Part shown: one piece after another, positions 30,166-52,684 of the stretch
Numbering within the stretch: position 1 is the first letter of the stretch
Layout of the letters: every line of letters starts with the position of its first letter
Origin: Lacihabitans soyangensis
Lineage (GTDB): Bacteria > Bacteroidota > Bacteroidia > Cytophagales > Spirosomataceae
Assembly: GCF_024343775.1 (NCBI RefSeq)
Contig: NZ_RJUF01000013.1
Coordinates: 1-57,485 of the forward strand
Reading direction: 5' to 3'
DNA: 57,485 nt
The notes under the pieces: model-generated
Told to the model about the DNA's origin: nothing
Seen by the model: only the letters and a program-made list of their open reading frames with translations
Databases searched by the model: none
Translations under genes and position numbers: made by a program

Positions 30166-30207
30166 GTAAGAAATGAGTTAAAGAATGTAAGAAATGAGTT
30201 AAAGGTC
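30166..30207 (+). promoter_or_regulatory. 21-bp tandem repeat, candidate LytTR binding site A
   Basis: Two units begin at 30166 and 30187 and share GTAAGAAATGAGTTAAAG exactly. The period of 21 bp equals two helical turns, as known for LytTR-type regulators that bind direct repeats on one DNA face. The second unit starts 37 nt before the TAATTTTG box. A near-identical pair with the same period and same 37-nt distance lies at 52367-52408. Repeats seen directly; the bound protein is inferred. Confidence 0.7.
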
Positions 30208-30223
30208 TAGGTTGGAGATTTAT

Positions 30224-30231
30224 TAATTTTG
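30224..30231 (+). promoter_or_regulatory. -7 box TAATTTTG of the first LytTR gene
   Basis: Matches TAnnTTTG and lies 25 nt before ATG 30256. The usual -33 TTG is missing and the tandem repeats occupy that region, the typical arrangement of an activator-dependent promoter. Confidence 0.6.
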
Positions 30232-30255
30232 GTAAAACTTAATTGCCTGAAACTC

Positions 30256-30558
30256 ATGAAAAAACTAATCTCTTTTGGAAGTAGAAAAGAATTGGATCCC
30301 GAACAGGTTGACTTCCTGAAAGCCGAAATTAACTACACGCACATTTATCTCAACGACGGCTCAAGGATACTGTCTTCTACATCGCTAGGAATCCTCGAAT
30401 CACGTCTTAAGCCCTTTGCTTTTTGTCGCCCAAATCGTTCGCATCTGGTCAATGCACGATTTATAAAACGAACTACTGAAGATGCTCTCGTCTTACAGAA
30501 TAATGAAATTGTGAAAATATCAAGGAGAAGACAAAAAAGGATATTGAAAGCTATTTAA
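30256..30558 (+). CDS. stand-alone LytTR DNA-binding protein
   Basis: A 100-residue protein that is a single LytTR domain with no receiver: KAEINYTHIYLNDGSRILSSTSLG for the first strands, then LESRLKPFAFCRPNRSHLVNARFIK, which includes the highly conserved F-x-R-x-[NH]-R-S-x-[LI]-[VI]-N, and EIVKISRRRQKRIL for the last strand and helix with the S-R-R motif. LytTR proteins bind direct repeats. ATG 30256 was chosen over TTG 30229, which lies inside the promoter box. Its stop is 24 nt before the adhesin A start, so both are one operon and the protein probably activates its own operon through the 21-bp repeats. How its activity is switched is not visible; phosphorylation is excluded by the missing receiver. 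Confidence 0.8.
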   Translation: MKKLISFGSRKELDPEQVDFLKAEINYTHIYLNDGSRILSSTSLGILESRLKPFAFCRPNRSHLVNARFIKRTTEDALVLQNNEIVKISRRRQKRILKAI

Positions 30559-30582
30559 TTGCCCAATTATTTTATTGAAACT

Positions 30583-33500
30583 ATGAAAAAAAACTTCTAC
30601 TTACTGCTTATTATTTTTATTGGCCTTGGCCACGGATTATTGGCCCAAACCAAGACTTGGGTTGGGGGTACTGTTGGAAATCTTACAAGTTGGCATGAGC
30701 CAAATAATTGGAGTCCTTCGGGCGTACCTACCGCTACTGATGCTGTTTTGCTCAATAGCAATACAACCAACGACCCAATTATCAGCTCTGCGGCAGTCGC
30801 AAAATCTATCGATATTTCTAATGGAGGTTGTCCGCTTACGGTTCAATCCACAGGTAGTCTGACTCTATCTAATGTTGGAAACCCTATAAATATCAGTCAA
30901 GGGTCTATCACAAATAACGGAACAATAACTGCTACAAATACTAGAGCAAGCCAGCCTGGTAATGAGGGGGCTTTAAGAATGACAAACGGTAACTTTTATC
31001 AGTACGGAACATTAGAATTAATTGGAGGAAATACTTACGGAATTAGTATTTCTGGTGCTGCCCCTTGTGAAATTACCTGCTACTCAGGCAGTAATACCAC
31101 AATAAGTGGCACAGACGGTTTGAGATTTACCACTACCACTGCTTTTATAGATATGCGTGATGGTTCGGTCATGAATATCACTGGCACTACAAGGGGAGCT
31201 TTTCTGAACCCTGGTAAAGTACAAGTAGCGGGGAAATTAACCGTAAACGGTAACGTAGAACATACAGGACTAGATGGTCTTTTTCAAACCTCAAATTGTG
31301 GCAGTATTACCATTAACGGCAATTTAAGCATGAATAATCAATCAGTGATTACCAATCCGGGTTCATTTGTAGTTACTGGAAATCTGAATACAGGCAATGG
31401 ATTTACAAACAACGGCGTGGTCAAATATGGAACTACCTCAGGTAACCCAATTAATAACAGACGGGCGTTGGTTTTTGATACGAATAGTCCAACTGGGGTG
31501 TTTACCATCTCAACCTTGGCAGGAAATACCACCAATATTGGTGTTTTTAGCGATGCTGCTGCCACGGTTTCGGCTGGTACTTATACGGCTGCAACCAATA
31601 GATTTGATATTTTAGCTAGCTATGCGGAAGGAACTTATCCACTATACGCCAAAATGACGCAGATAACCTGCAACTACATTGTGCCATTTAATTTTACAAA
31701 AGTGATTGGTAGAAAATATGTAAAACCAACTGCTTCGGGAACTGGTGATGGCTCTTCATGGACAAATGCCTCTGCTGATTTGCAAGCCATGATAAACGCC
31801 TCTGGTGCTAATGATGAAGTTTGGGTAGCGGCTGGTGTTTATAAACCACAAAAAAATGCTGCGGGCAATGCTTCGCCATCTGATGCAAGGGATAAACTCT
31901 TCGTTATGAAAGCTGAGGTGAAAGTTTACGGTGGTTTTTCTGGTACTGAAACGCTTTTAAATCAGAGAGATTGGGTAAATAATAAAACAATTCTATCAGG
32001 TGACATAGACAACAACGATATAAATACAGACGGTAACAATATCAGTGAAAACCATACAGATATTGTTGGAAATAATGTCTATCATATTGTAGTTTTTGCA
32101 GGATTGAATAGTACCAATTCCAATAATATTTTGGATGGATTTATTCTGACAGGGGGCAAAACCTCCCCTTCCAGCACTTCTACCAATCAAACGGTAAATA
32201 CGGTGCCAATAAGCTCATTTAGGGGAGCCGCTATTTTGGTTTCTGTTGCTGGGGCTACCATTAAAAACTGCGTAATAACAGGAAATTCATCTGATGCAGG
32301 TGCATTTTATATAAACAATCAAAACGCTTGGGCAAATTTGGTAACTACCCTCGAAAATTGTCAGTGGCTGGGAAATACCAATTCGGGCACAGGTTTGATA
32401 TTCTTTCACAGAACTTTTATAAATATGATTAATAATGTGATGGCAAATAATACGTCGAACGGTGGAGTGCTGTATGTTTCGAGTAATAATCCAGTCGGAA
32501 ATGTCATCAATATTAATCATTTGACATTTTATAATAATACTTCAACAAATTCATCCCTTAGCCCTGTTCACTTCGAATCAGGTATAATAAATGTAAGCAA
32601 TTCGATAATTAGAAATGCGGCATTGACAAGTACCAATATTATTAACAATACTTCAACACTTACGATTTCAAATTCAAATATCTTGGGTTCGAATGTGAAT
32701 GGTTCTTGGAATGCCGCTTTCGGATCAAATGGTGGAAACAATATAGATATGCCACCATTATTCAGTAATACTGCCAGTATCATAGGTGCAGATAATAAAT
32801 ATTTTACTGCTGACGATGGATTGACGTTGACATCTTGCTCTCCGATGTTAAACAACGGCAGCAATGGATTAACCACCGATATCATGGGCAATACCCGCCC
32901 TTTTGAAACGACAGTAGATATGGGGGCTTATGAATTTCAATCAACCTCAACCTTACCCGCCGACGCTACGGGCGTATCAGTGAGTAGTAATTCAGTTACA
33001 TGTGGACAGTCTGTTACTTTATCTGCCAGTTGTGCAACAGGAACTGTAACTTGGTACAATACTTCATTAGGCGGAATAAGCATCGGCGTTGGTACAGGAT
33101 TAGCGGTGACAGTCTTAAATAACCCATCGGTTTATTATGTAGCTTGCGAATCAAGTGCTACGTGTGTGAGTGCAAGACGAGTGGCTACGGGTAGTATTAC
33201 AGTTACCTTACCTGCCGATCCAACCAATGTAACGGTAAGTAGCACAGCTATTTGTCCAAATACGATGGTCTCCTTGAGTGCCTCATGTGCAACGGGTATT
33301 CCTGAATGGTACAATGGAGCCTCAGCCCTTTCGACAACTACCCCGTTTACACCTACCGTTACCACAAATACAACGTATTCGGTGAGATGTAAAAATGGAA
33401 CTTGTTTGAGCAATCCTGTAAATTTACCACAGATAATTGTTTTGAGTACACCTACCGGTATAACTACAAGCATAAGAAATATTTGTGGCAATACCATACC

Positions 33501-34410
33501 CGCTATTACATTTACAGCTACTTGTGCTGTAGGAACTGTCAGATGGTACAACGCCCCAAGTGGAGGTGCTCTGGTAGGTACTGGAAGTCCGTTTGTAAAC
33601 ACACCTGTCAATCCCGTTCCCGGATTTAATCGTTATTATCCAAGTTGTTCAAACGGTACTTGTGAAAGTAATCGTAGTTCGGGTGAGTCTTTTGTTTACA
33701 CGCCAGTTCCGAGCAATGCAGTTGCCAGTCCAAATACCATTTGTACGCCTAGTAATGTTACTTTTTCTGCAACTTGTAGCAATGGAAGTATCAACTGGTA
33801 TACTAATCCAACAGGTGGGTCCTCTATTAGTACCGCAAGTTCCTTTATACAATCGGTTAGTAGTACGACCACTTACTATGCCGAATGTACCCATAATTTT
33901 TTGAGTGTATGTTTTACGGATAGAGTAGCGGTAACGGCTACTTTCGAGACTGCACCCACTAGCCCAACAGGTGTTTTGGCAAATAAAAACTTGGTCTGTC
34001 CAAATGGAAGTGTTTCTTTGTCAGCCACTTGTGCCTCGGGGACCGTGAAATGGTATAACGCTTCCACCGGTGGGACTTTGTTAGGTTCTGGTAGCCCTTT
34101 GGTACAGAATCCAACTGCCAGCATCACTTACTATGCCGCCTGCGAGTCTGGCTCTTGTACGCCAAGTGCAAGGGTGGCCACCGTACAAGTGGTAGTTGGG
34201 AATATTCAAAACTCGCTGACGATCACATCAACAATTACTGGAACGCAAAATTTCCTAGCTGGTCAGAGTATCAATGCCAGTAACGTGATAAACGCCCCGG
34301 CAAACATCAAATACTTGGCCAGTAACTTTGTTCAGCTTAATCCAGGATTCTCTGTTGGTTCTGGCTCAGTATTCGAAAGTAAAATTGAGAGTATTCAGGC
34401 CTGTCCGTAA
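30583..34410 (+). CDS. giant secreted adhesin A with beta-helix, five Ig-like repeats and coathanger end
   Basis: About 1275 residues: signal peptide (KKNFYLLLIIFIGLGHGLLA, cut near AQ), an N-terminal region of beta-rich repeats, a parallel beta-helix region with choice-of-anchor signature (LNNGSNGLTTDIMGNTRP, VDMGAYEFQ near residue 785), then five roughly 80-residue modules each with a C-x-N-x-x-[VS]-x-[FL]-[ST]-A-[ST]-C-x-x-G-x-x-x-W-Y pattern, and a C-terminal 3-coathanger-stack domain (NAPANIKYLASNFVQLNPGF). The coathanger end is probably the surface anchoring or T9SS-related part. Alternative TTG 30559 is rejected, since ATG 30583 gives the signal peptide directly. A hairpin terminator follows at 34471. 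It is coupled to the LytTR gene upstream and likely binds a surface or polysaccharide; target unknown. Confidence 0.85.
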   Translation: MKKNFYLLLIIFIGLGHGLLAQTKTWVGGTVGNLTSWHEPNNWSPSGVPTATDAVLLNSNTTNDPIISSAAVAKSIDISNGGCPLTVQSTGSLTLSNVGNPINISQGSITNNGTITATNTRASQPGNEGALRMTNGNFYQYGTLELIGGNTYGISISGAAPCEITCYSGSNTTISGTDGLRFTTTTAFIDMRDGSVMNITGTTRGAFLNPGKVQVAGKLTVNGNVEHTGLDGLFQTSNCGSITINGNLSMNNQSVITNPGSFVVTGNLNTGNGFTNNGVVKYGTTSGNPINNRRALVFDTNSPTGVFTISTLAGNTTNIGVFSDAAATVSAGTYTAATNRFDILASYAEGTYPLYAKMTQITCNYIVPFNFTKVIGRKYVKPTASGTGDGSSWTNASADLQAMINASGANDEVWVAAGVYKPQKNAAGNASPSDARDKLFVMKAEVKVYGGFSGTETLLNQRDWVNNKTILSGDIDNNDINTDGNNISENHTDIVGNNVYHIVVFAGLNSTNSNNILDGFILTGGKTSPSSTSTNQTVNTVPISSFRGAAILVSVAGATIKNCVITGNSSDAGAFYINNQNAWANLVTTLENCQWLGNTNSGTGLIFFHRTFINMINNVMANNTSNGGVLYVSSNNPVGNVININHLTFYNNTSTNSSLSPVHFESGIINVSNSIIRNAALTSTNIINNTSTLTISNSNILGSNVNGSWNAAFGSNGGNNIDMPPLFSNTASIIGADNKYFTADDGLTLTSCSPMLNNGSNGLTTDIMGNTRPFETTVDMGAYEFQSTSTLPADATGVSVSSNSVTCGQSVTLSASCATGTVTWYNTSLGGISIGVGTGLAVTVLNNPSVYYVACESSATCVSARRVATGSITVTLPADPTNVTVSSTAICPNTMVSLSASCATGIPEWYNGASALSTTTPFTPTVTTNTTYSVRCKNGTCLSNPVNLPQIIVLSTPTGITTSIRNICGNTIPAITFTATCAVGTVRWYNAPSGGALVGTGSPFVNTPVNPVPGFNRYYPSCSNGTCESNRSSGESFVYTPVPSNAVASPNTICTPSNVTFSATCSNGSINWYTNPTGGSSISTASSFIQSVSSTTTYYAECTHNFLSVCFTDRVAVTATFETAPTSPTGVLANKNLVCPNGSVSLSATCASGTVKWYNASTGGTLLGSGSPLVQNPTASITYYAACESGSCTPSARVATVQVVVGNIQNSLTITSTITGTQNFLAGQSINASNVINAPANIKYLASNFVQLNPGFSVGSGSVFESKIESIQACP

Positions 34411-34470
34411 TTTTCCTTTTTTAACTTTGTAGCCATGAAATTTTTTTAAAGCAAAGTAAGTAAAAAACAC

Positions 34471-34496
34471 AAAAAGTCCCCCGACAGGGACTTTTT
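34471..34496. terminator. bidirectional intrinsic terminator
   Basis: AAAAAGTCCC (34471-34480) pairs with GGGACTTTTT (34487-34496) around a CCGACA loop, with A and T runs on either side. It lies between the convergent adhesin A gene and the M1-peptidase/ABC gene and can stop transcripts from both sides. Confidence 0.85.
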
Positions 34497-34562
34497 GCAT
34501 TTCAAGAAACAAGCATGATTCCAAAAAAGATAAACCATCTTAAATAAATTCATCCCAATTAT

Positions 34563-38210: not shown

Positions 38211-38228
38211 AATTTTAAGATTTGATTT

Positions 38229-39101: not shown

Positions 39102-39183
39102 ATTTTTAATATTAGGGTAATAGAAATCAAAAGGTATTAGGAATTCTCTGATTCCAAGGCTTCAAAAATAGCCTTAACTTATT

Positions 39184-39191
39184 CAAATATA
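39184..39191 (-). promoter_or_regulatory. -7 box of the ABC/M1 operon (TATATTTG)
   Basis: On the minus strand TATATTTG matches TAnnTTTG and lies 83 nt before the ATPase start. No clear -33 TTG was found upstream, so moderate confidence. Confidence 0.4.
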
Positions 39192-39421
39192 AGAAATTAT
39201 TGATAAAAGGAAGTTTTTGTTGATAATCCACGGAGATTCCATTTTTAATTTATTTTCAATGGTTGTGGAGAAAACTATGTTGAAGAAAATGGCAGTTTCA
39301 AAGCTTATAGGAGTCATATTTTTAGGCAAAATTTCAGCTATAACTTCAATTGGTTAGTGTATAATTTGAATTATAAATTCCTAAAGAGATTATGCTACCG
39401 TTTACTTCAAAATAATTTTTC

Positions 39422-39453
39422 TTTGAGATTTGTTTTTCACTGATTTATATTTG
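39422..39453 (+). promoter_or_regulatory. promoter of hybrid kinase 1 (TTTG / TATATTTG)
   Basis: TTTG at 39422-39425 and TATATTTG at 39446-39453 are 20 bp apart, which fits the Bacteroidota -33/-7 arrangement. The start codon ATG 39479 lies 25 nt downstream. Confidence 0.6.
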
Positions 39454-39478
39454 CAAGCTTGCTCTTATGATCCCAGCC

Positions 39479-42265
39479 ATGAAAAAATTAAAAGAATTCT
39501 TAAAAGTACTAGTACTTTGCTCCATTTTATTTGAGGTTTATGCTCAGGAAGTTACTTTAGATAGTACTGTTAAATTCCCCTTGAATATTTCTACCAGTAT
39601 TGAAACGTTTCAAGACGCCTCTGGTTCGGTTTCATTGGAAGAAGTCCTAAAAAAATCTTTTTCCAAGCCTAACAAAGACCACTTTGTATTTCCTTATTCT
39701 GACAATATTTACTGGGTAAGGGTATCGTTAAAAAATAATACCTTCCATGTTAAGGAATTCTACTTGTTATGGTCCAACCCGCTGGTAGAACAGTTGGATT
39801 TTTACATATCGGATAGGGCCGATATGAAGGATTTTAAACATGTAGAACAAAAGATAATTACCAAGGAAAGAGACAAGAAGTTTATCGACCAAGATCCACG
39901 ATTCATTTTCAAAATAGAGCCGAATCAAACCCGTTATATCTACTTCAAACTTACCAGCAAACGTGGACATTACGGAGAGTTGCGACTACATACACGAGAG
40001 TCATTTCAGAAATTCAGGATGGATGATTTCGCAAGCCAGGGTTTTCTTAATGGTTTGATGTTTTTCAGACTTTTTTTGGTGCTGGTTTTGAGTTTTTTTA
40101 TCATTAAAGATCTATCCTTCAGGCTTTACTCCCTTTATACGCTTCTCAGGACATTTAATTATTGGGGTTATCTCAACATTGCCGGCCCACTTTTTACGGA
40201 CCAACCTGACATGGCCAAGAAAATTGATTTTCTATGTTATAATTCTGCCACTTTGGGTGCAGGTATATTTTTAATCGCCACTTTTACTGTTCAAAAACTA
40301 CCCAAAGTTCATTTGTATTTGGTCGGCCTTTTCCTGTTGTTCACGGTATTTTTCAGTTCGGTTATATTTTTCGATTACCAGTGGTATTGGTTGAAAGGTG
40401 GCGTGTATACGCTGGTTTTCTCGGCTGGATATTATATTTTGCTTTACATTTTTCTGACAGTTAAAAATGTCGCCTTTGCTAGATATTACAGCATTTTGTT
40501 TACTTTCGGTTTACTTAGCTCGTTTTTGCTCAATGTGCGACTATTGGGTTGGATAGAACTCAAACCTATTTATACACTTTCCTATTATTTCTTTCTAGCG
40601 GAGTTTGTCTTTTTTGTGATTTTCTTGGGAAGGATTTTCAGAAACACGGAGCGGAATAAGACTTTGACGGAGCGACAACTGAAGTTCAATATTGAGCAAA
40701 ACAACAAGCTCAAAGAACTCGATAACCTCAAGACTACATTCTTTACGAATATTTCACACGAAATTCGTACTCCACTGACCCTCATTACTGGTCCATTTCA
40801 GCAATTGGCCGAAAAATACCCTAGCGACAAGCTGATTCCGCTTATTCAACGCAATACAGATAGACTACTTACGCTCGTCAATCAAATATTGGACATCAGC
40901 AAATTGGAGGCTGGGCAAATGAAGCCCGAAATTGCCAATCATAACATTACCGAATACCTCCGTACACTTACAAGTTCTTTCATCTCTCTGGCAGAAAGTC
41001 GGAAAATCGATTTTGAAAGGTCCTTCAGTTCTACCGAAACCTATGGCTTTATAGATCGAGACAAGGTAGATAAAATAGTCACGAATTTGCTTAGCAATGC
41101 CTTTAAATTTACACCGCAAGGCGGCAAAGTGAGTTTTGAAAAGTATTTTGATGCGTCCAAAAAAAGGATGACCATCGTGATAAGTGATACTGGTATAGGA
41201 ATTGAATCTGAAAAGTTATCCAAAATATATGACCGATTCTATCAGGCGGATGATGCCCAAAATCGCAGTTTTGAGGGCACAGGCATTGGATTGGCATTGG
41301 TAAAGGAGTTGGTTGAGGTTCTAAAAGGTAAAATAACCGTGGAAAGTCAGAAAGATGAAGGAACTACTTTTAGTGTAGAATTGCCCATTGACAGGCTGAC
41401 ATGGAAAGATTTTATTGGGCCGATAAACGAAAATTCATATCAGAATACTGTTTCAAAGCAACAAGTACAGACGCCAACTGAAAATTTTGATTCAGAAAAT
41501 GATCAGATTCTGCTCATCGTTGACGACAACGAGGATATCAGGAATTACGTGCGGAGTATTTTTGAGATAGATTATAAAATAGTGGAGGCTCGAAACGGAA
41601 AAGATGGCGTAGAAAAAGCCATTGAGCAAGTTCCTGACATTATAATCAGTGATTTGATGATGCCCGAAATGGATGGATTGGAGTTTTGTAAGGTCCTCAA
41701 AGCTGATGCTCGAACGAGCCATATTCCGATAGTTATGCTAACTGCCAAAGCCAATGTGGAGAGCCGAATTGAGGGTTATGAGCTGGGTGCAGACGATTAT
41801 GTTATAAAACCCTTCAACAAGAATGAACTTCAGGCCAGGGTTAAAAATCTACTGGATGTTCGTGCCAAACTAAGACAAAAGTATGAAAGTAAGGAACAGC
41901 AAGAATCAGCTGAGCCAGATGCAAAAGTGAATGAAGTAGATGGGCGGTTTATTCAAAAGGTAATTGAAATTATTGATGAACATCTCTCAGACTCTCAGTT
42001 TGGTATAGATCAACTGGCTGATGAAATGCTCCTAAGCACCACCCAACTACGCCGCAAAATAAAAGTCCTGACCAACCAAACCATTGTGGAGTTTATCCGG
42101 AATCATCGCCTACATAAAGCAGCACAATTGCTGAGTCAAAATACCGGCACCATATCAGAGATTGCCTACCAAGTTGGTTTCGACAGTCTGAGTTATTTCT
42201 CCAAGGTTTTTCAGGAATCTTATGGGGTTTCGCCTTCGGATTATCGGGTGAGTAATTTGAAGTAG
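39479..42265 (+). CDS. hybrid histidine kinase 1 (7TMR-DISM, HisKA, HATPase, REC, AraC)
   Basis: About 928 residues: signal peptide, extracellular 7TMR-DISM sensor domain (DNIYWVRVSLKNNTF, SNPLVEQLDFYISD), seven membrane helices (about 195-390), HisKA with FFTNISHEIRTPL (phospho-His near 427), HATPase with NLLSNAFKF, SDTGIGIE and GTGIGLALVKEL, a receiver with DDNEDIR, Asp in IIISDLMMPEMDG near 724 and YVIKPF, and a C-terminal AraC DNA-binding domain (IAYQVGFDSLSYFSKVFQES). It is a one-protein two-component system for sensing an extracellular ligand, often a carbohydrate. ATG 39479 was preferred to 39467 as it begins the signal peptide. Its targets are unknown; adhesin genes on both sides are candidates. 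Confidence 0.9.
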   Translation: MKKLKEFLKVLVLCSILFEVYAQEVTLDSTVKFPLNISTSIETFQDASGSVSLEEVLKKSFSKPNKDHFVFPYSDNIYWVRVSLKNNTFHVKEFYLLWSNPLVEQLDFYISDRADMKDFKHVEQKIITKERDKKFIDQDPRFIFKIEPNQTRYIYFKLTSKRGHYGELRLHTRESFQKFRMDDFASQGFLNGLMFFRLFLVLVLSFFIIKDLSFRLYSLYTLLRTFNYWGYLNIAGPLFTDQPDMAKKIDFLCYNSATLGAGIFLIATFTVQKLPKVHLYLVGLFLLFTVFFSSVIFFDYQWYWLKGGVYTLVFSAGYYILLYIFLTVKNVAFARYYSILFTFGLLSSFLLNVRLLGWIELKPIYTLSYYFFLAEFVFFVIFLGRIFRNTERNKTLTERQLKFNIEQNNKLKELDNLKTTFFTNISHEIRTPLTLITGPFQQLAEKYPSDKLIPLIQRNTDRLLTLVNQILDISKLEAGQMKPEIANHNITEYLRTLTSSFISLAESRKIDFERSFSSTETYGFIDRDKVDKIVTNLLSNAFKFTPQGGKVSFEKYFDASKKRMTIVISDTGIGIESEKLSKIYDRFYQADDAQNRSFEGTGIGLALVKELVEVLKGKITVESQKDEGTTFSVELPIDRLTWKDFIGPINENSYQNTVSKQQVQTPTENFDSENDQILLIVDDNEDIRNYVRSIFEIDYKIVEARNGKDGVEKAIEQVPDIIISDLMMPEMDGLEFCKVLKADARTSHIPIVMLTAKANVESRIEGYELGADDYVIKPFNKNELQARVKNLLDVRAKLRQKYESKEQQESAEPDAKVNEVDGRFIQKVIEIIDEHLSDSQFGIDQLADEMLLSTTQLRRKIKVLTNQTIVEFIRNHRLHKAAQLLSQNTGTISEIAYQVGFDSLSYFSKVFQESYGVSPSDYRVSNLK

Positions 42266-42763: not shown

Positions 42764-45517
42764 ATGTTTTTTTGTAAAAAACGAAAAATAACAATTGGAT
42801 ATTTTTTATTGTATTTCACGATCTCGAAATTTTGCCTTGCTCAGGACTTTGTCATTTCCAAAAGCACCAAACTACCTTATGATTTATCGTTAAAAGTTAG
42901 TTGGTTTGAAGATGCCACTGCCAAACTTTCTTTTCAAGAAGTAAAAAAACAAACGTTTATAAAACACGAAAAAAAGTCGGTTTTATTGCCATTTTCTAAT
43001 CAAGCCACCTGGCTGAAAATAGACCTAAAAAATGAAAGTTATCAGGACACAACTTTTTATTTATTCCTTGATAATCAACTTGTCAGAAGGACTACTTTGT
43101 ATATCAATAATCAAGCCGACAGTTTAGTTTTTGAGCCTTTTAAAGACAAGGGATTTAGTAATTTAAAATATCCTCACTTTCCGATTATACTCAAACCCAA
43201 GGAAAGCAAAAGTTATTATTTAAAATTTGAATCTGAAAGAGGTGCCTATTTTAAACTTCAACTTTATGGCTACAAAGATATTGAAGACCTAAATGGCTCA
43301 TACAAGATACGTTTAGGTGTGATTGTTGGCTTGACTTGGATGATTCTTTTTATTGTCTGCATCATAGGTTTTATGGTGATAAAAGACAGAAAGTCAAGGT
43401 CTTATGCGATTTATACTTTAGCTCGTGCATTCAGTTTTTGGGCATCTCTGAATATCTTAGGTAATTTTATCGGAACAGACCCTACAGTTTCTGAAAAGGT
43501 CACCTTTGGATTAATGAATATTTATCCAATCATGGGTTCTTTTTTAGCGTTGAATATTCTGCCTTTTGGAAATTTGCCGAGATGGGTAAAGCATACTATT
43601 TATGGTTTTATCGTCATCAATCTGTTTTTATTGCTTTTATTGTTTATAGCTTATGGCCCTGTTTTTCTGAAGCTCTTGGTAATACTAAATCTAATTAGCC
43701 ATTCATTTTTTTACACGCTTTTTATTTACACTTTAATCAAGAAAATAAACCAGTCTCCTTTTTATGCGATTCCTTTTCTATTGGGAAATGTTTCAAATGT
43801 CTTGTTAAATTTGAGGGTGTCAGGGATTCTACAATTTGAAAATATCTATGGAATCGCAATTTTTGTTGCACTGACTGAAATAGCTGTTTATGTGTATTAC
43901 TTAAGTCAAAATTTCAGAGCATCAGTAAAAATACAGGCGGAAAAACTACGAAATTTAGGTTTTGAGGCTGAGAAAGCCGCTAAATTAGAAGAATTGGATA
44001 AACTCAAAACTCGTTTTTTTACTAATATTTCGCACGAATTTCGTACACCACTTACGCTTTTGGTGGGTCCAATCGAAGACTTGAAGAAGAAATTTCCGCA
44101 AGAAGGCATTATTGATGTAATGCAGAGAAACCTCCAACGGCTGCAAACCCTAATTAATCAACTACTTGACCTTTCCAAATTAGAAGCGGGCGAAATGAAA
44201 CCAAATCTTCAAGAAGTTGATTTAAATAATTTTTTGAATCAATTAGTGGCTTCTTTTGAATCTTTGGCTCATAGCAAACACATTATTTTTAAGCATTCTC
44301 AACCCCATACACCCCACTTTGCTCTTTTCGATACTGATAAATTAGAAAAAATTGTTACGAATTTACTTTCAAATGCTTTCAAGTTTACACCTGAAAATGG
44401 CAGAATTGTTATCAAAATAGATTATTCGGATAATCAATTAATTGTACAAATTCAAGATTCTGGTATTGGCATCGAAGAAGCAAGATTGCCTCATATTTTC
44501 GACCGTTTTTATCAAGTTGAAGAACATAATAATTATGAAGGAACAGGAATCGGGCTCGCCTTGGTAAAAGAATTAGTTGATTTGCTTCAAGGAACAATTG
44601 AAGTGAGCAGCCAAAAAGGTGTTGGAACGAGGTTTGAATTAGTTTTACCTTTTACACCATTAGAAAAACTCTCGAATCCTGTTGTACAATTTGAAAGAAA
44701 GGTAAATGTAGATGAATCTTTGATTTCCGCCAATCCGAAAATTGACTCTCCAATTGAAGCCGATGGACAAAGCATCATGCTCATCGTGGAAGATAATCCC
44801 GACCTACGAAACTACATAGCCAGTGTTTTTGAAAACCAGTATCAAATCATAATGGCGGTTGATGGTGAAGATGGTTTGTCAAAAGCCCTCGAATTTATAC
44901 CTGACATCGTGATTTCGGACTTGATGATGCCTAAATTAGATGGCTTGGGTCTATGCGAAAAACTCAAAACCGATGAGCGAACCAGCCATATTCCTGTGGT
45001 GATGCTCACTGCAAAAGCCAGCCTATCGGATAGATTAGCTGGACTCGAACATGGGGCAGATGATTATCTTTCAAAGCCTTTCAATAAAGAAGAATTACAG
45101 ATTAGGGTAAAAAACTTAGTCAGTCAAAGACAACTATTGTTTGATAAATTCTCTGCTAAAACGTTAATTGAAAAGATAGAAGTAACAAAAGAGCCTACAA
45201 TTGAAGAAATATTTGTAAAGAAATGTCAGTCAGTTATAGATAAATACCTTGACAAAAGCGAGTTTGACGTAGAAAAATTTGCCGATGAAATGAGACTTTC
45301 TCCCGTGCAATTACGCCGAAAATTAAAGGCAATTACCGACCAAAACATAACCGAATTTGTAAGGAATTATCGTTTAGAAATTGCAGCAAAATTATTGAAA
45401 ACGAGCGATTTTTCAGTATCCGAAATTGCCTATAAAGTGGGTTTTGATAGTATGCCGTATTTTTCAAAAGTATTCCAAGAACGATATGGAAAAACAGCGA
45501 GCGAGTGGAAAGAATAA
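42764..45517 (+). CDS. hybrid histidine kinase 2 (paralogue of kinase 1)
   Basis: A 917-residue paralogue with the same order: signal region with hydrophobic leader, 7TMR-DISM domain (NQATWLKIDLKNESYQDT), seven helices (about 180-375), HisKA FFTNISHEFRTPLTLLVGP (His near 423), HATPase NLLSNAFKF, DSGIGIEEA and GTGIGLALVKELV, receiver VEDNPDLR, VISDLMMPKLDG (Asp near 719) and YLSKPF, then AraC domain IAYKVGFDSMPYFSKVFQERYG. It ends 186 nt before the second LytTR gene, with a hairpin terminator between. Sequence divergence from kinase 1 is substantial in the sensor part, which suggests different ligands. It may control the LytTR2/adhesin B unit downstream. Confidence 0.9.
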   Translation: MFFCKKRKITIGYFLLYFTISKFCLAQDFVISKSTKLPYDLSLKVSWFEDATAKLSFQEVKKQTFIKHEKKSVLLPFSNQATWLKIDLKNESYQDTTFYLFLDNQLVRRTTLYINNQADSLVFEPFKDKGFSNLKYPHFPIILKPKESKSYYLKFESERGAYFKLQLYGYKDIEDLNGSYKIRLGVIVGLTWMILFIVCIIGFMVIKDRKSRSYAIYTLARAFSFWASLNILGNFIGTDPTVSEKVTFGLMNIYPIMGSFLALNILPFGNLPRWVKHTIYGFIVINLFLLLLLFIAYGPVFLKLLVILNLISHSFFYTLFIYTLIKKINQSPFYAIPFLLGNVSNVLLNLRVSGILQFENIYGIAIFVALTEIAVYVYYLSQNFRASVKIQAEKLRNLGFEAEKAAKLEELDKLKTRFFTNISHEFRTPLTLLVGPIEDLKKKFPQEGIIDVMQRNLQRLQTLINQLLDLSKLEAGEMKPNLQEVDLNNFLNQLVASFESLAHSKHIIFKHSQPHTPHFALFDTDKLEKIVTNLLSNAFKFTPENGRIVIKIDYSDNQLIVQIQDSGIGIEEARLPHIFDRFYQVEEHNNYEGTGIGLALVKELVDLLQGTIEVSSQKGVGTRFELVLPFTPLEKLSNPVVQFERKVNVDESLISANPKIDSPIEADGQSIMLIVEDNPDLRNYIASVFENQYQIIMAVDGEDGLSKALEFIPDIVISDLMMPKLDGLGLCEKLKTDERTSHIPVVMLTAKASLSDRLAGLEHGADDYLSKPFNKEELQIRVKNLVSQRQLLFDKFSAKTLIEKIEVTKEPTIEEIFVKKCQSVIDKYLDKSEFDVEKFADEMRLSPVQLRRKLKAITDQNITEFVRNYRLEIAAKLLKTSDFSVSEIAYKVGFDSMPYFSKVFQERYGKTASEWKE

Positions 45518-45532
45518 CGTTTTGTATGTTTT

Positions 45533-45561
45533 GAGGAAGAAAAAACACAAAACGAGGAAGA
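45533..45561 (+). repeat. GAGGAAGA direct repeat with 21-bp period
   Basis: GAGGAAGA occurs at 45533-45540 and 45554-45561, again 21 bp apart. The sequence is different from the 21-bp repeats at 30166 and 52367 and it precedes a terminator instead of a promoter box, so the link to LytTR2 is weak. Confidence 0.3.
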
Positions 45562-45580
45562 GTTTTTAATATTTTTTTTG

Positions 45581-45605
45581 AGAGGGCAATTGCCCTCTTT
45601 TTTTT
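45581..45605 (+). terminator. intrinsic terminator after hybrid kinase 2
   Basis: The palindrome AGAGGGCAATTGCCCTCT (45581-45598) is followed by a run of eight Ts. It lies 64 nt after the kinase 2 stop and separates it from the LytTR2/adhesin B unit. Confidence 0.8.
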
Positions 45606-45670
45606 GTTCAAAATGAGGAATAGAAAGGCGTTTTTGTGATAACACCTGCCAGATGGTTATACACAATTTT

Positions 45671-45703
45671 GTAGAAAGTTTTAAACAATAAAATTTTTCT
45701 ACC
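45671..45703 (+). promoter_or_regulatory. GTAGAAAG / TTTCTACC leader element before LytTR2
   Basis: GTAGAAAG (45671-45678) can pair with the inverted TTTCTACC (45696-45703), which touches the ATG 45704. The same TTTCTACC motif lies directly before the adhesin B start codon and, as TTTCAACC, before the pseudogene start. It could be an RNA hairpin or a protein site that controls translation start. Inferred from position and repetition. Confidence 0.45.
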
Positions 45704-46039
45704 ATGAATAATCAACCCTTAGTGCACGTTGGAGGGCGAAAGAAATTTTGTCCATCAGAAATTATTCTCCTTGAAAGCGACATTAATTATACTCGCTTAC
45801 ACTTTACAGATGGTAGTATGCTTCTTACAGCTACCAACCTTGGCACATTAGAATCTCGCTTTTCCTCCTTCAATTTTTTTCGTCCTAACAGGTCTTGCAT
45901 AATCAACCTTGATTTTATGACCAACTACGAAGAAGAAACTGGCTCGATAAAAATGGAAAACAATGATACCATTCAGATTTCGAGAAGGAGAGTCAAGCCT
46001 TTCATAAACTTTTCGAACAAATACTTCAATCGAATCTGA
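45704..46039 (+). CDS. second stand-alone LytTR DNA-binding protein
   Basis: A 111-residue single LytTR domain with SDINYTRLHFTDGSMLLTATNLG, then FNFFRPNRSCIINLDFM with the conserved F-x-R-P-N-R-S and I-I-N, and IQISRRRVKPF. It is a diverged paralogue of the LytTR protein at 30256-30558 and again lacks a receiver domain. It lies 119 nt before giant adhesin B on the same strand. The start is ATG 45704. It probably regulates its adhesin neighbour; its binding site was not identified with confidence. Confidence 0.8.
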   Translation: MNNQPLVHVGGRKKFCPSEIILLESDINYTRLHFTDGSMLLTATNLGTLESRFSSFNFFRPNRSCIINLDFMTNYEEETGSIKMENNDTIQISRRRVKPFINFSNKYFNRI

Positions 46040-46045
46040 ATAAAA

Positions 46046-46158
46046 GAACTTTCGTGGTAGAAAGAAAAGAATATGGGGAGAATGAAAACCCTTGATTTCT
46101 TCCCTTTTCTTCATTCTTCTACCCATTAAAAAAACTTTCTACCAAAACCTTTCTACCT
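46046..46158 (+). repeat. adhesin B leader, duplicated at 51424-51524
   Basis: This leader begins near ACTTTCGTGGTAGAAAG and holds GAATATGGGGAGAATGA, GATTTCTTCCCTTTTCTTCA and two copies of CTTTCTACC (46135-46143 and 46149-46157) just before GTG 46159. About 90 of 100 positions recur at 51424-51524 before the pseudogene. GGTAGAAAG and the facing TTCTACC copies allow an imperfect long hairpin. Confidence 0.7.
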
Positions 46159-49100
46159 GTGAAAAAAATTATCCTTTTATCTATCATTTCGACAATCTCG
46201 AATTTTGCTTTTGCTCAATTCCCAAATTTGGCTGCTTCGAGCAATTCTCCTGTTTGTAATGGCAATACGCTGATTCTTTCAGCTACACACGATACCCCAG
46301 CAGGTGGTACAACAGTGGCTTATAGTTGGACTGGCCCAAATGGTTTTACAAGTTCTACTCAAAACCCACAAAGACCCAATGCCGCCGCCGTTGATGGTAC
46401 TTATACTGTTACGCTCACCTTATCAGGTACGCAAACGGGTACATTTACTGCCACTACAGCCGTTTTTACGGTTATTACTCCGATAGTTACAATGAAAAGT
46501 TATTTACAAGGCGATAATTTGAACGTAAGTAATAATTTTTGTGTAGGAAATAATATGACGCTTGAAGCAACAACCGATTATACTTCGGGAGTTAGCTATT
46601 CGTGGACAGGACCCAATGGTTTTTCGAGTACGCTTCAAGCCCCTACTATCTCGAATGTAACTGCTGCCAATGCTGGTAATTATCAAGCTACAATTACCTT
46701 TAATAATTCGTCCTGTGTATATGTTTCCAAAAGAAATTATGAGATTACGATTGGCTCACCCAGAGTTAGTATTAGTCAAAATCAAGTTTGTAGCGGTGGA
46801 AACGTAACACTCACACCAGTGCTTTCGCCAGCTTCGGCAACAGTAAGTTCTTACTTATGGGAAGGTAACAATGGTTTTACGAGTAATGCCAGTTCGTTGA
46901 CTATCAATAATTTACAAGAAAGGAAAACATATAAATTGACTGCGGTTTTTGGTGGCGGATGCAGCGGTACTGCGATAGCTTATGCAACCCCACAACCTAT
47001 GGTGCCTACACCGAGCGTTATTTCTCGTGTTTTTAATTGTAATGTCAATGTAGCGGCTTCGATGCCAAGTACATTTGCTCCAGCCGAATTGACCAATTAT
47101 AGTTGGACAGGTCCGGGTGGATTTACGAGCAATCAGCTTGCACCACAAGTTACTCAGGCAGGAGATTATACCTTTACAGGTACGATTTCGGGTGCTGGAT
47201 GCAACGATGTCTTTACCCGTACTGTTACAGTGCCACGCATCCCTTCCACTACAAATCCTATTTTAAGTGTGTCCCTTTTATCTACCACCGAATTTACTGG
47301 CGTTCAATCTTCCTTTTGTGATGGTATTGATGTGATTTTAATTGGCACAAATGCTGGCGACCAATTTAATACTATTTCTTATAATTGGACTGGACCCAAT
47401 GGTTTTAGCAGTGCACTTGCTACGCCTAAGATTCCAAATTTTAGTGCTGCCAAAGCTGGGGTTTATAGTTTAACCATTATAGGTACAGGCAATGCTTGTA
47501 GCCCAACTGCTACCGCTACCGCCTCGAATACTCTTTATGTTGGACACAATACTGCACCTTCTTTGACAGGTATCAGTTTTACAAACGTAAACGCACCAGG
47601 AACAGCCTTTTGTAGTGGAAGTACGGTTTCGATGACACCAACTTTAAATACAAACTCTAATAATTCTATCGGTACATATTCATGGACAGGACCTAATGGA
47701 TTTACAAGTACCCAAAGAGTACCGAGAATAAGCAATGTTTCAGCAGCCAACGAGGGAGTTTATAGCGTAACGGCAACATTTACAAATGGTTGTGTAGGCA
47801 CTGCAACCTCATCGGCAACATTGACGCTATCTACTCAATCTTCATTTAGTGTTACATCAAGACGAATTAAGTTTAATAATGCTACTGGAACATCAAATTG
47901 CTTGGGCTCAACGGTTGAACTAATTGCACAAACAGGTGGAAGTATTATCAATAATATTTCATGGACGGGACCAAATGGATTTTCATCAACTGCTCTCAGT
48001 CCGCAAATTTTTAATGCTACGGCAGCAAATTCGGGATATTATTATGCCACGATTGATATGGGTGGAGAATGCCCTGCTACCATAACCAGAGCGGGAAACC
48101 TTACCTTTTCAAATACTGGTGTTCTTCCTTTCGGGCTCAACCGAGTAAATACCGACCCTACAAGCGATAATCGCTCGATTTGTTTGGGCAATAATATTAA
48201 GCTCTTTGCGAGTCCATTGACATCAAGTTATTACCAAGCCACATATTCATGGTCGGGACCCAATGGTTTTACGAGTAATGACATTGCTCCGACCATCAGT
48301 AATATTGATGCTTCAAAATTGGGTACTTATTCTTTAAATGTAAATTATACCGATGGCTGTACAGGTTCAGTCGCTGTAACAACAACAATAAATACCAACC
48401 CGCCAACTTTTTCAATCGGAACAGTAGGTGGCAGTGCGTTTTGTAATGGTTCTCCTGTTTCATTCGCCCCGACGCTTGCATTAACAAATATTGATACCTA
48501 TTCATGGACAGGTCCAAATGGCTTTACGAGCAATCAATCGAGGGCAATCATACCGAGTGTTTCTGCGTCAAATATTGGGGTTTATACCTTAACTGTCAAT
48601 ATTGGGGGAAGTTGCCCAGCAACGGTTACAGCTACAACTAACCTTGCTTATGAAACTGCCCCAGCCACTACAACCATAAGATTTACAGAGCAAATCACAA
48701 ATCTTGCAGGAAGTAATCAATGTGCAGGTTCTAATATTATACTCTCACTTCCTAATTTAGTAACTTCACAAATTACATCTTATTCATGGTCTGGGCCAGG
48801 TGGATTTTCGAGTAACCTTGCAAGTCCCGTCGTAACCAATGCACAAGCAGGTACATATTCGGCAACGGTTACATATTTAGCTTGTGGGGTAGTTAGTACA
48901 GTAACTGCTACCGCCTCATTAACCAATACCAAAACGGTAACACTTGCAGCCAGAAATCAAGGCGGTGCATCTGCTTCAACCTTTTGCTCAGGAAGTAATA
49001 TCGAATTATTTATTGCATCTTCCAATCCAGTTTATGCACTGCCAAATTCGTATGGCTGGGCAGGACCTAATGGATTTAGTAGTACAGCAGCAACGCCATT

Positions 49101-51405
49101 GATAAGCAGTGCTACGAGTGCAAATGGGGGAGTTTATACGCTTACGGTTAATTTTGGGAATCCTTGTGCAGGTACAGTTACGGCTACGATAAATATTACG
49201 ATTGCCAATTATCAAGCCAATTTATTAGCCCGAAGAGCAGGACAATCCTCTAATGCCTTCACGTTTTGTAGTGGTTCTGCCGTTGAACTCTATTCTTCAA
49301 ATACGCCAAATAGTGGTACAATCAGTTCATATAATTGGACAGGACCCAATGGATTTAGTAGTACAGCCACGTTGCCTCAAATAGCAAATTTCCAAGCTAC
49401 TAATGCTGGTACATATAGCCTGACCGTAACTGTAAGTAGTGGTGCTTGTGCAGGAACTTATACAGCTACTTCCAGTTTAACATTTGGCAATCCAATTCAT
49501 ACTTTAACAGCAAATGCACAAACCGTCCAATGTCCTGGTGGAAACATTTCGCTATTTTCACAGGTGAGCGGTCAAAACTATGGAACTGGGACAACCTACA
49601 GCTGGACCGGACCCAACGGGTTTTCGAGTACAATTCAAAATCCAGCCTTGACCAACCTTCAATCTGTTAATTCAGGTATTTATACTATTACAATAAATTA
49701 TCCATTTACTTCTGGTTGTGCGGCATCAGGTACTGTAACAAATACGACAAAATTAGCCATCGGCAATACAGCAGCCAATATTTTGGCAGGACAAGACCAA
49801 ACGGTCAACGCCAATACCACTTTCCCTTTAAATATTGAATTATTAGGTGGAACATTTCCAATTTCTATGACTTTGAGTAATGGTTCTTCTTATGTTTTCA
49901 ATAGCTCAAACGGAAATCTTGGGAATGTTTTATCTATTAGTACCTCTCTTGCAAGTTCTCAAACAATTTCGATTTCGAGCATTACGAGTTCGTGCGGAAC
50001 TGGTTCAGGTACAGGTAGTGCAGCGATTACAGTGAATCAGCCTTGCTCGACATCTACAACAGCACTAAGTCGTATTCAAGGGGCAGGAACTACCTCGACT
50101 ACCTTTTGTACGGGAACTAATGTAGAATTGTATACATCATTTAATTCAAACCCATCGGGTGTAACGTATTCGTACAACTGGGCTGGACCAAATGGATTCA
50201 GTAGTACAAGTGCAACGCCTCTGTTAGCCAATGCCCAAGCGAGCGATTCGGGAACATACACCGTAACCGTTACTTTTGGTGGCTCATGTACGGGTACAGC
50301 CTCTTCTACCCGAACCATAACAGTTGCCAATACTGCTCTCAGTATCTATGGAAAAAGAGTTGGCTCACCAACTATTGCCTTTACATTTTGTAATGGTTCT
50401 GATATAGATTTAGTTACTACATTTACTCCAACTGCCCCAACCATTAGTTCCTATTCTTGGACAGGTCCGAATGGGTTTAGTAGCACTGCTAACGTGCCAC
50501 AGATACCTAATTTTCAATCAATTAATAATGGAACATATTCTCTTACCGCAGTTGTAACAGGTGAGTGTGTAGGCACTTATACAGCTACTGTTAATTTAAG
50601 CTCAACAAATACGATTACGCCAAGCATCGGTTTAAGCACTCTTTCTGTGCAATGCCCTGGTGGAGCGATAACCTTCTTCCCACAAACTAATACAGGCGAT
50701 TTTAGCAATGGCACAACCTACTCTTGGTCAGGACCCAATAGCTTTAGTAGTACTGCCAAAAATCCAGTTTTGACCAACCTCCAAGCTGTCAATAGTGGTA
50801 TTTACACCGTTACGATTGTGCATAGCTCAACGCATGGTTGTGCCAACTATACAGGAACTACCACCTTGACCAAAACATTGAGCATCGGCAATACAGCCGC
50901 CAATATTTTGCCTAACCAGAACCAAACGGTGGCTGCCAATACCAATTTCACTTTAAATATTGAAATTTTGGGTGGCACCTTCCCCATGACGCTGAATTTG
51001 AGCAATGGTAGTAGTTTTAGTGTTCCTTCCACCATTAGCAATACAGGAAACATTTTCACTGCCAATCTATCAGTTCCTTCTGCTCAAACCATCACGATTT
51101 CGAGTATGACCAGTAGCTGCCCAGCAGGTACAAACACAGGAAGTGCGGTCATTTCAATAGGAACACCTTGTCCGCTGAGTTTACCTAATCTTTCGGGTAC
51201 ATTTAATAACGGAGTAACTCAATACAGAGAAGCATCGGGCATTATTACGACCCAAGCAGGTACTGGTGCAATTTTAACGGTCAATAGCGGCGGAAAGCTA
51301 ACGCTTGATTCAGGCAAATCTATTTTGCTTCAACCTGGTTTTGAGGCAAAAACTGGTTCGGTTTTCAGAGCGTTTATTGATGGCTGTGGGGGAATTACTA
51401 ATTGA
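46159..51405 (+). CDS. giant secreted adhesin B with 16 Ig-like SWTGPNGF repeats
   Basis: A 1748-residue protein starting at GTG 46159: signal peptide (KKIILLSIISTISNFAFA), then 16 Ig-like modules of about 75-110 residues, each with the core [YI]-x-W-[TSA]-G-P-[NG]-G-F-[ST]-S followed by P-x-[IL] and a YTVT-like last strand. Two special blocks rich in NTAANIL..Q.QTV..NT (about residues 1205 and 1575) are near-duplicates that separate repeat groups. The end is a 3-coathanger-stack domain (GGKLTLDSGKSILLQPGFEAK). Secretion by the type IX system and surface location are likely. The close repeats imply frequent recombination. It is coupled with LytTR2, and a degenerate partial copy lies directly downstream. 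Confidence 0.85.
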   Translation: MKKIILLSIISTISNFAFAQFPNLAASSNSPVCNGNTLILSATHDTPAGGTTVAYSWTGPNGFTSSTQNPQRPNAAAVDGTYTVTLTLSGTQTGTFTATTAVFTVITPIVTMKSYLQGDNLNVSNNFCVGNNMTLEATTDYTSGVSYSWTGPNGFSSTLQAPTISNVTAANAGNYQATITFNNSSCVYVSKRNYEITIGSPRVSISQNQVCSGGNVTLTPVLSPASATVSSYLWEGNNGFTSNASSLTINNLQERKTYKLTAVFGGGCSGTAIAYATPQPMVPTPSVISRVFNCNVNVAASMPSTFAPAELTNYSWTGPGGFTSNQLAPQVTQAGDYTFTGTISGAGCNDVFTRTVTVPRIPSTTNPILSVSLLSTTEFTGVQSSFCDGIDVILIGTNAGDQFNTISYNWTGPNGFSSALATPKIPNFSAAKAGVYSLTIIGTGNACSPTATATASNTLYVGHNTAPSLTGISFTNVNAPGTAFCSGSTVSMTPTLNTNSNNSIGTYSWTGPNGFTSTQRVPRISNVSAANEGVYSVTATFTNGCVGTATSSATLTLSTQSSFSVTSRRIKFNNATGTSNCLGSTVELIAQTGGSIINNISWTGPNGFSSTALSPQIFNATAANSGYYYATIDMGGECPATITRAGNLTFSNTGVLPFGLNRVNTDPTSDNRSICLGNNIKLFASPLTSSYYQATYSWSGPNGFTSNDIAPTISNIDASKLGTYSLNVNYTDGCTGSVAVTTTINTNPPTFSIGTVGGSAFCNGSPVSFAPTLALTNIDTYSWTGPNGFTSNQSRAIIPSVSASNIGVYTLTVNIGGSCPATVTATTNLAYETAPATTTIRFTEQITNLAGSNQCAGSNIILSLPNLVTSQITSYSWSGPGGFSSNLASPVVTNAQAGTYSATVTYLACGVVSTVTATASLTNTKTVTLAARNQGGASASTFCSGSNIELFIASSNPVYALPNSYGWAGPNGFSSTAATPLISSATSANGGVYTLTVNFGNPCAGTVTATINITIANYQANLLARRAGQSSNAFTFCSGSAVELYSSNTPNSGTISSYNWTGPNGFSSTATLPQIANFQATNAGTYSLTVTVSSGACAGTYTATSSLTFGNPIHTLTANAQTVQCPGGNISLFSQVSGQNYGTGTTYSWTGPNGFSSTIQNPALTNLQSVNSGIYTITINYPFTSGCAASGTVTNTTKLAIGNTAANILAGQDQTVNANTTFPLNIELLGGTFPISMTLSNGSSYVFNSSNGNLGNVLSISTSLASSQTISISSITSSCGTGSGTGSAAITVNQPCSTSTTALSRIQGAGTTSTTFCTGTNVELYTSFNSNPSGVTYSYNWAGPNGFSSTSATPLLANAQASDSGTYTVTVTFGGSCTGTASSTRTITVANTALSIYGKRVGSPTIAFTFCNGSDIDLVTTFTPTAPTISSYSWTGPNGFSSTANVPQIPNFQSINNGTYSLTAVVTGECVGTYTATVNLSSTNTITPSIGLSTLSVQCPGGAITFFPQTNTGDFSNGTTYSWSGPNSFSSTAKNPVLTNLQAVNSGIYTVTIVHSSTHGCANYTGTTTLTKTLSIGNTAANILPNQNQTVAANTNFTLNIEILGGTFPMTLNLSNGSSFSVPSTISNTGNIFTANLSVPSAQTITISSMTSSCPAGTNTGSAVISIGTPCPLSLPNLSGTFNNGVTQYREASGIITTQAGTGAILTVNSGGKLTLDSGKSILLQPGFEAKTGSVFRAFIDGCGGITN

Positions 51406-51423
51406 AAATTAATATAAACAAAA

Positions 51424-51524
51424 ACCTTTTGTGGTAGAAAGAATAGAATATGGGGAGAATGATAAACTTTGATTTCTTCCCTTTTCTTCATTCCGCTGCT
51501 CATTTTTTTTAAAACTTTCAACCA
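51424..51524 (+). repeat. second copy of the adhesin B leader
   Basis: Shares GTGGTAGAAAGAA, GAATATGGGGAGAATGA and GATTTCTTCCCTTTTCTTCA in the same order with 46046-46158 and ends in AACTTTCAACCA directly before ATG 51525. It shows the whole leader plus adhesin start was duplicated. Confidence 0.7.
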
Positions 51525-52169
51525 ATGAAAAAAATACCTTTTACTGTCATTTCGACAATATTGAATTTTGTGTTCACCAAGTTTCCTAATTTGGTTGCTT
51601 CTAGAAATGCTCCAGTTTGTAACGGGAATACGTTAAGCCTTTCACTAACTCATGATTCCCCCACACTTGGGACTACAGTACAATATAGCTGGAGTGAACT
51701 AAATAATTTTACCAGTACAGCCCAAAAACCACAAAGATTCAGTTCTTATGCTTTTGATGATACTCATAGAGCAACACTTACACTATCTGGTACTCAAACA
51801 GCTGCTTTCACTGCCACCACAACTGTCCTTAAAACTCCTGTATCTTTTGTTGCATTGAAATGTTGTTTACAAGACTATCATCTGAACATCATTAATGATT
51901 TTTGTGCAGGGAATAGCATGTCGCTCGAAGTTCAAACTGATTATACCTCGGGTGTGAACTATTCATGGACAGGACCATATGGGTTTACAAGATCGGAAAG
52001 AGTTCCGAAAATAAGCAATATTTCAGCCACAAATGAAGGCTGCATAGAGCTTGATAGCAACCTTCTCAATAGGTTGTATTCGCACAGAAACAACAACTTA
52101 CCCAAGGTTTTTCATGAAAGTTATGGGGTTTCGCCTTCGGAATATCGGGAACAAGTGACGAAAAAGTAA
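51525..52169 (+). pseudogene. chimeric remnant: adhesin B N-terminus joined to a hybrid-kinase AraC tail
   Basis: A 214-residue frame. Residues 1-155 are a diverged copy of the adhesin B start (FPNLVASRNAPVCNGNTLSL, DYTSGVNYSWTGPYGF), then KISNISATNEG, which matches another adhesin B repeat. A +1 shift follows: the shifted frame at about 52056-52098 reads ATFSIGCIRTETTT, like the lost repeat end ATFTNGCVGT. The last 21 residues, PKVFHESYGVSPSEYREQ and on, match the C-terminus of hybrid kinase 1 (KVFQESYGVSPSDYR), with near-identical DNA (GGGGTTTCGCCTTCGGA). It thus joins a third adhesin copy to the tail of a third kinase by deletion. Product, if any, would be non-functional. Confidence 0.75.
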
Positions 52170-52366
52170 TAATGCGGGATGCGTATCAATGGTCAATATT
52201 ACTTTAGGTTTACCCTATATGTTTATCCACAAACATCTCAAGTCTCCATAATTAGCCATCTCAGACATTCCTGAAGTTATTTTTATTAAAATTCTGATAA
52301 CAAGTCCTTTAATGTCTTCTTCAGATAGATGATTCATTATATTCAGTTATCAGAAAATTGCATTTT

Positions 52367-52408
52367 GTAAGAAATGAGCTAAAGAAAGTAAGAAATGAGC
52401 AAAAGCGA
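52367..52408 (+). promoter_or_regulatory. 21-bp tandem repeat, candidate LytTR binding site D
   Basis: Units at 52367 and 52388 share GTAAGAAATGAGC and end in TAAAG or AAAAG. They match the units at 30166 and 30187 nearly base for base, have the same 21-bp period and lie at the same 37-nt distance from a TAATTTTG box. This is the strongest evidence that one LytTR protein controls both loci. Confidence 0.7.
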
Positions 52409-52424
52409 AAGCCTAGCGAATGTT

Positions 52425-52432
52425 TAATTTTG
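52425..52432 (+). promoter_or_regulatory. -7 box TAATTTTG of the SprB-like adhesin
   Basis: Identical to the box at 30224-30231 and equally spaced from the tandem repeats. The distance to the first in-frame ATG (52685) implies a leader of about 250 nt. Confidence 0.55.
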
Positions 52433-52684
52433 CTCGAACCAAGTCTTAGTTCAAATATTTGATATATAATATTCTTTCGTTTGGATTGGTTTTAGCATTT
52501 CAATCTCAGTTCACTATTCTTTTTTTGGTTTAATAATTGAGAATATTGCGGGGTGCAAACTTTAGACTCAGATGTACCGCTGGATAAAAAAAATATTACC
52601 TGAAAATAGTTATAAATGTGTATGATGTATATTTGTTTAATGAATTAATTTCTTGTGATAATTTAAAGAAATTTATTTCAGGCC

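Follow-up and report, generated by a model that had tools for sequence, protein, structure and literature searches.

The window analysed here, the complete 57,485-nt contig C13 of the Lacihabitans soyangensis source genome (G000; 5.65 Mb in 198 contigs), carries three tandem-repeat promoter elements upstream of genes for stand-alone LytTR regulators and large surface proteins, which we consider candidate operators of a self-acting regulator. The features concerned, in order of position, are:

30166..30186, forward strand: operator site 1, unit 1 (GTAAGAAATGAGTTAAAGAAT)
30187..30207, forward strand: operator site 1, unit 2
30224..30231, forward strand: site 1 -7 box TAATTTTG, +37 from unit 2, no TTG at -33
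30256..30558, forward strand: stand-alone LytTR regulator P0001, 100 amino acids (Pfam LytTR, E 3.8e-13, no other domain)
30583..34410, forward strand: adhesin A, 1275 amino acids, five Ig_7 stretches and a GCX_COOH C-terminal domain, 24 nt after the LytTR gene
45606..45626, forward strand: operator site 3, unit 1
45627..45647, forward strand: operator site 3, unit 2, divergent
45664..45671, forward strand: site 3 -7-like box CAATTTTG, +37 from unit 2
45704..46039, forward strand: second stand-alone LytTR regulator, 111 amino acids (Pfam LytTR, E 7.9e-17)
46159..51405, forward strand: Ig/PKD-type adhesin, 1748 amino acids, with a GCX_COOH C-terminal domain
52367..52387, forward strand: operator site 2, unit 1 (GTAAGAAATGAGCTAAAGAAA)
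52388..52408, forward strand: operator site 2, unit 2
52425..52432, forward strand: site 2 -7 box TAATTTTG, +37 from unit 2, no TTG at -33
52628..52635, forward strand: alternative -7-like box TATATTTG, nearer the SprB-like ATG
52685..57485, forward strand: SprB-like surface protein (PKD_4, SprB repeats), truncated where the contig ends

The 12-mer GTAAGAAATGAG occurs exactly at 30166-30177, 30187-30198, 52367-52378 and 52388-52399, with a period of 21 bp in both pairs, and the same box begins at 30224 and 52425, each time 37 nt from the start of the second unit. According to PMC7366714, the Bacteroidota housekeeping promoter combines TAnnTTTG at -7 with TTTG at -33. Sites 1 and 2 carry exact TAnnTTTG boxes and the box of site 3 is one base off, likewise at +37; the -33 element of the sigma-ABfr promoter is missing, with no TTG 17-27 nt before the box at any of the three sites. 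An initial annotation of this sequence had described the two GTAAGAAATGAG pairs, their shared box and the lack of a -33 element, all of which proved exact. Its picture of two promoters was borne out at both sites and was incomplete, having overlooked the site at 45606, which ends (at 45671) 32 nt before the second stand-alone LytTR gene, and with it a second LytTR-adhesin operon. Gene starts were also corrected (LytTR ATG at 30256, adhesin A ATG at 30583), and the second perfect TAnnTTTG before the SprB-like ATG was added.

P0001 belongs to the LytTR DNA-binding family PF04397, scoring 49.9 bits against a cut-off of 22.6 (61.7 bits for the second gene). With its 100 amino acids taken up by the LytTR domain, it lacks an N-terminal receiver domain, and no transmembrane inhibitor gene adjoins it, the next gene encoding a secreted adhesin both here and in the sister genome G006. 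A search of solved structures by sequence returned no LytTR chain from the PDB and just two weak WhiA matches.

The lone 12-mer, at up to two mismatches, was seen 9 times against 7.39 expected and so is not rarer than chance; it is the paired, spaced arrangement that is significant. The GTAAGAAATGAG pair, at up to three mismatches, occurs twice in the whole of G000 (sites 1 and 2; 0 reversed), and a scan of ten genomes from the genus added a single further place, in G006. A relaxed pattern found exactly three sites in G000, each with 0 mismatches and all inside the window (30166, 45606 and 52367), and one site in the nine sister genomes, again in G006, with 0 for the reversed control. This genome-wide search, which the initial annotation had called for, thus returned no random scatter of repeats without promoter boxes.

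Conservation extends beyond the genus. In G006 the operator lies directly upstream of a LytTR orthologue (67% identical), running GTAAGAAATGAG...GATAGAAATGAG at a period of 21 with TACATTTG at +37; the gene after this orthologue encodes an adhesin that shares 33% identity with adhesin A across 1146 amino acids. Among 168 LytTR upstream regions of the family, 42 TAnnTTTG boxes had enough preceding DNA for a register test; repeats of at least 9/12 in the register of the window were present at 13 of the 42 with period 21, and at none with 12 other periods (15 to 27). When the full architecture, with both units, their spacing and the box set at 29 bases, was searched at up to three mismatches, 23 of the 222 family genomes yielded 44 sites in all, and the reversed pattern yielded 0. 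Within an order-wide sample of 390 genomes, six matched, all within the family, and none of the 311 genomes outside it did so. The +37 register is constant across genera and the spacer varies; these comparisons mark the shared architecture as an evolutionary footprint. A weight matrix built from 32 of the 44 family sites, including sites 1 and 2 and excluding site 3, scored 55.9 bits at 30166, 48.8 at 52367 and 38.4 at 45606, and shuffled and reversed controls never rose above 0 bits in 1.85 Mb of DNA.

Low-complexity look-alikes were set aside separately: four of 17 places found are of the true type (two in G000, one each in G006 and G053), and most of the remaining 13 are runs resembling GTAAGAAGTGAG. 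At six loci inspected from those 17 or related to them, no LytTR or adhesin gene was so arranged outside G053.

Taking the first open reading frame (ORF) of at least 80 amino acids as the downstream gene, LytTR comes first at 20 of the 44 family sites, and two further, tandem sites precede a 104-amino-acid ORF and then LytTR. Seventeen of the remaining 22 were assigned to the surface-type class. For 12 of them the basis is a Pfam family scoring over its cut-off (Ig_7, FG-GAP, beta helix, ricin lectin/PKD, PMP repeats, SBBP and PKD/SprB, the SBBP ORF starting 819 nt from its site), and for five it is the N-terminus alone; in the family scan, two of these five had no family, one had a match below cut-off only and two fell outside the scan. 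The last five sites precede a sulfatase gene, a TTHB210-like lipoprotein-type gene, a 104-amino-acid ORF without family and, twice, no near ORF. Judged by eye where the DNA was at hand, a secreted or adhesin-like protein follows 11 of the 20 operator-linked LytTR genes, and several others are not so followed. Seven of the 23 genomes (G000, G108, G111, G114, G115, G195 and G213) hold both LytTR-first sites and surface-type sites without LytTR first. In G108, G114 and G115 the latter include one adhesin A homologue each (937, 936 and 928 amino acids; Ig_7), 38-40 nt after the box, with GCX_COOH present in the one homologue tested; the predicted layout in these three genomes is the design that the initial annotation had proposed for site 2. 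Comparison across genomes lends strong support to the earlier suggestion of a self-regulating LytTR operator that also controls a distant adhesin, with the operator standing directly before LytTR in the orthologue and many relatives, at a constant distance from a TAnnTTTG-like box, and seven genomes bearing further copies ahead of surface-protein genes where LytTR does not come first. In G111, one operator-linked LytTR gene (L309) is followed directly by a long protein resembling in look the hybrid sensor kinases of the window described below.

Positions 1-4 of the units, unconstrained in the pattern, agree within a site: across the 32 of 44 sites used, with the relatedness of sites left in, identity was 0.758 against 0.464 in shuffled pairs (0 of 2000 shuffles), and 15 of the 32 have the identical tetramer in both units. 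Sites 1 and 2 both read TAAG/TAAG and site 3 reads TTCA/GCGT, which suggests a common regulator for sites 1 and 2 and a different one for site 3; because its variable tetramer differs, site 3 is probably read by its own LytTR. We infer this assignment of regulators to sites from position and the shared tetramer.

We consider it likely, on this evidence, that a stand-alone LytTR protein, most likely P0001, has its operators at sites 1 and 2 and would activate both the LytTR and adhesin A genes and the SprB-like gene. Two LytTR copies would bind the tandem units 21 bp apart, at approximately -69 to -31 from the start expected by the -7 box, and would occupy the position at which a -33 element would otherwise lie, recruiting RNA polymerase to TAnnTTTG at a fixed distance. 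The simplest way to read an operator lying across the -33 position is that the bound protein activates by standing in for the -33 contact. Site 1 would drive the LytTR gene and adhesin A, and with the LytTR gene inside its own operon this would amount to positive feedback; site 2 would place the SprB-like gene under the same regulator, and site 3 would be a promoter of the same type before a paralogous LytTR-adhesin operon. Binding by P0001, activation, positive feedback, switching and co-expression are all steps that we infer from the DNA, and taken together they describe a self-acting regulator that probably switches on surface adhesins in sets, in three operons here.

Several observations weigh against this reading. 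Site 2 lies 252 nt from its ATG (52685), and the perfect TAnnTTTG TATATTTG, approximately 50 nt upstream of that ATG, is closer to it than the site 2 box. At four of the 44 family sites (L318, L324 and L287, and L322 with a lipoprotein-like gene) the target is unclear or no LytTR, surface-type, sulfatase or lipoprotein gene was found downstream in the DNA covered or close by, and eight of the nine sister genomes have no site. G000 encodes 49 LytTR domains, and by our own count 28 lie in reading frames no longer than 159 amino acids; 26 of these 28 stand-alone genes lack the operator described here, and a paralogue in G000 could be the true regulator. Finally, LytTR comes first at no listed site in nine of the 23 site-bearing genomes, so that another regulator may read those sites.

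The same operator might instead serve repression, the tandem dimer covering the -33 region and blocking RNA polymerase in a negative autoregulatory loop. Unit 2 does overlap the -33 place, but the lack of a -33 element is what would be expected of activator-dependent promoters, and the characterised LytTR direct repeats upstream of promoters activate, as described for SilA (PMC2766830) and for the LytTR regulatory systems (LRS; PMC6193735); we regard repression as unlikely. That the operators are read by one or more other LytTR proteins, for example a response regulator, with the adjoining LytTR gene merely a target, would be in keeping with the 49 LytTR domains and with the nine genomes just mentioned. 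Set against this are the 20 sites immediately before a stand-alone LytTR gene and a tree of 188 LytTR domains, sampled partly by operator presence, on which the 23 operator-bearing domains cluster (eight changes against a shuffled mean of 22.0; 0 of 500 shuffles), and we judge it quite unlikely. That the sites are a duplicated promoter block, or repeats arisen by chance and with no role in regulation, is very improbable: the neighbourhood does hold duplicated blocks (46043-46127 and 51420-51504, 87% identical; 42201 and 52102, 92%), but a comparison of site 1 with site 2 gives 35/42 identical positions in the units against 8/16 in the 16-nt spacer and 20/60 in the 60-nt flank on each side, so that recent duplication of the block was rejected, and the register is kept across genera with a varying spacer and zero counts in all reversed and outside-family controls.

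The operator proposed for P0001 is one dialect of a wider arrangement. In a motif-free test of the 160 nt upstream of 123 stand-alone LytTR genes from ten genomes of the genus, at periods 13 to 32, period 21 was the only one to show 12/12 repeats, in six genes; repeats of at least 11/12 were present in nine at period 21 and at most one at any other. At period 21, repeats of at least 11/12 preceded 10 of 99 LytTR genes against 2 of 327 genes away from LytTR genes, one of the latter two being a simple repeat. The repeat sequence varies between LytTR orthologue groups and is kept within them, as with CCGTCACTTATC/GCCAyTTATCG in seven orthologues. Given these period and orthologue-group results, 21-bp operators before LytTR genes are a general feature, with GTAAGAAATGAG one version of it. 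Other 21-bp operators of G000, searched for in the genus, gave one place for TAACACCTTTAA; TTTCACAAAAAA likewise gave one, beside its orthologous sites and some weak matches. A still broader picture, of family-wide sensorless, self-amplifying LytTR switches, matched by tetramer, each governing its own adhesin operon and distant adhesins through operator copies and insulated from one another so as to choose the surface coat, is one that we put forward tentatively and hold to be possible rather than probable.

Further repeats were observed near LytTR genes. The direct repeat TTTCACAAAAAA lies between a LytTR gene and a divergent 573-amino-acid gene and is kept in four genomes (L047, L110, L140 and L184). 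LytTR proteins are usually tied to direct repeats; a second operator type, the inverted repeat AATACC-N8-GGTATT, lies upstream of 6 of the 168 LytTR genes (L052, L076, L111, L119, L131 and L186), with TAnnTTTG at exactly +41 in five of the six and nine distinct copies in 1.86 Mb of DNA. G000 has 28 stand-alone LytTR genes (L037-L064), and in many cases the next gene encodes a long secreted protein with a GCX_COOH-like tail. A wider contig scan for LytTR relatives gave just four distant loci (one at 29%, in an Arcicella metagenome-assembled genome), which were not used.

Within the window, two hybrid sensor kinases (7TMR-DISM, HisKA, receiver and AraC-type HTH; 39467-42265 and 42764-45517) precede the second LytTR-adhesin operon. 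The block at 46043-46127, 85 nt long, lies before the Ig adhesin, and its copy before a short ORF (51525-52169) that starts like the Ig adhesin and ends, at the 42201/52102 match, like the AraC tail of the hybrid kinases. From this composition, the short ORF is a presumptive remnant of a duplicated adhesin-regulator block.

To our knowledge, little is known of how large secreted adhesins of Bacteroidota are controlled, and no description of such a LytTR-adhesin switch was found in the open-access literature searched. If the proposal is true, a short DNA pattern predicts co-expressed surface proteins together with the small regulator reading them, and offers a model of how cells could be held in one surface state by a regulator that has neither sensor nor receiver nor membrane inhibitor. 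Among known systems, AgrA has the same type of repeat and controls its own locus. LytTR proteins bind direct repeats of 9-10 bp separated by spacers of 11-12 bp, and response regulators of the SilA type, with such repeats, likewise control their own locus (PMC2766830). Unlike the AgrA/SilA type, the operon here encodes neither a receiver domain nor a kinase. Closer still are the LRS, including HdrRM and BrsRM of Streptococcus mutans, which, according to the account in PMC6193735, autoactivate through two such repeats just upstream of the operon promoter, mostly with 12-bp spacers and hence the 21-bp period found here (spacers of 11-13 bp mark LRS operons); there too the repeat sequence differs between systems with the spacing kept, and the regulator also reaches distant targets. 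In contrast, the same account has the LRS require a membrane inhibitor gene beside the regulator, where a secreted adhesin gene stands here, and places their repeats approximately 10 bp upstream of -35, or, in the two Bacteroides LRS-like operons, 11 bp before a -33-like element (PMC6193735), whereas the repeats here cover the -33 place and no -33 element is present. With the Bacteroidota housekeeping promoter the -7 TAnnTTTG is common to both, the operator here replacing the -33 element (PMC7366714). The putative P0001 system would be a variant of known LytTR autoregulation that has no receiver, ligand domain or membrane inhibitor.

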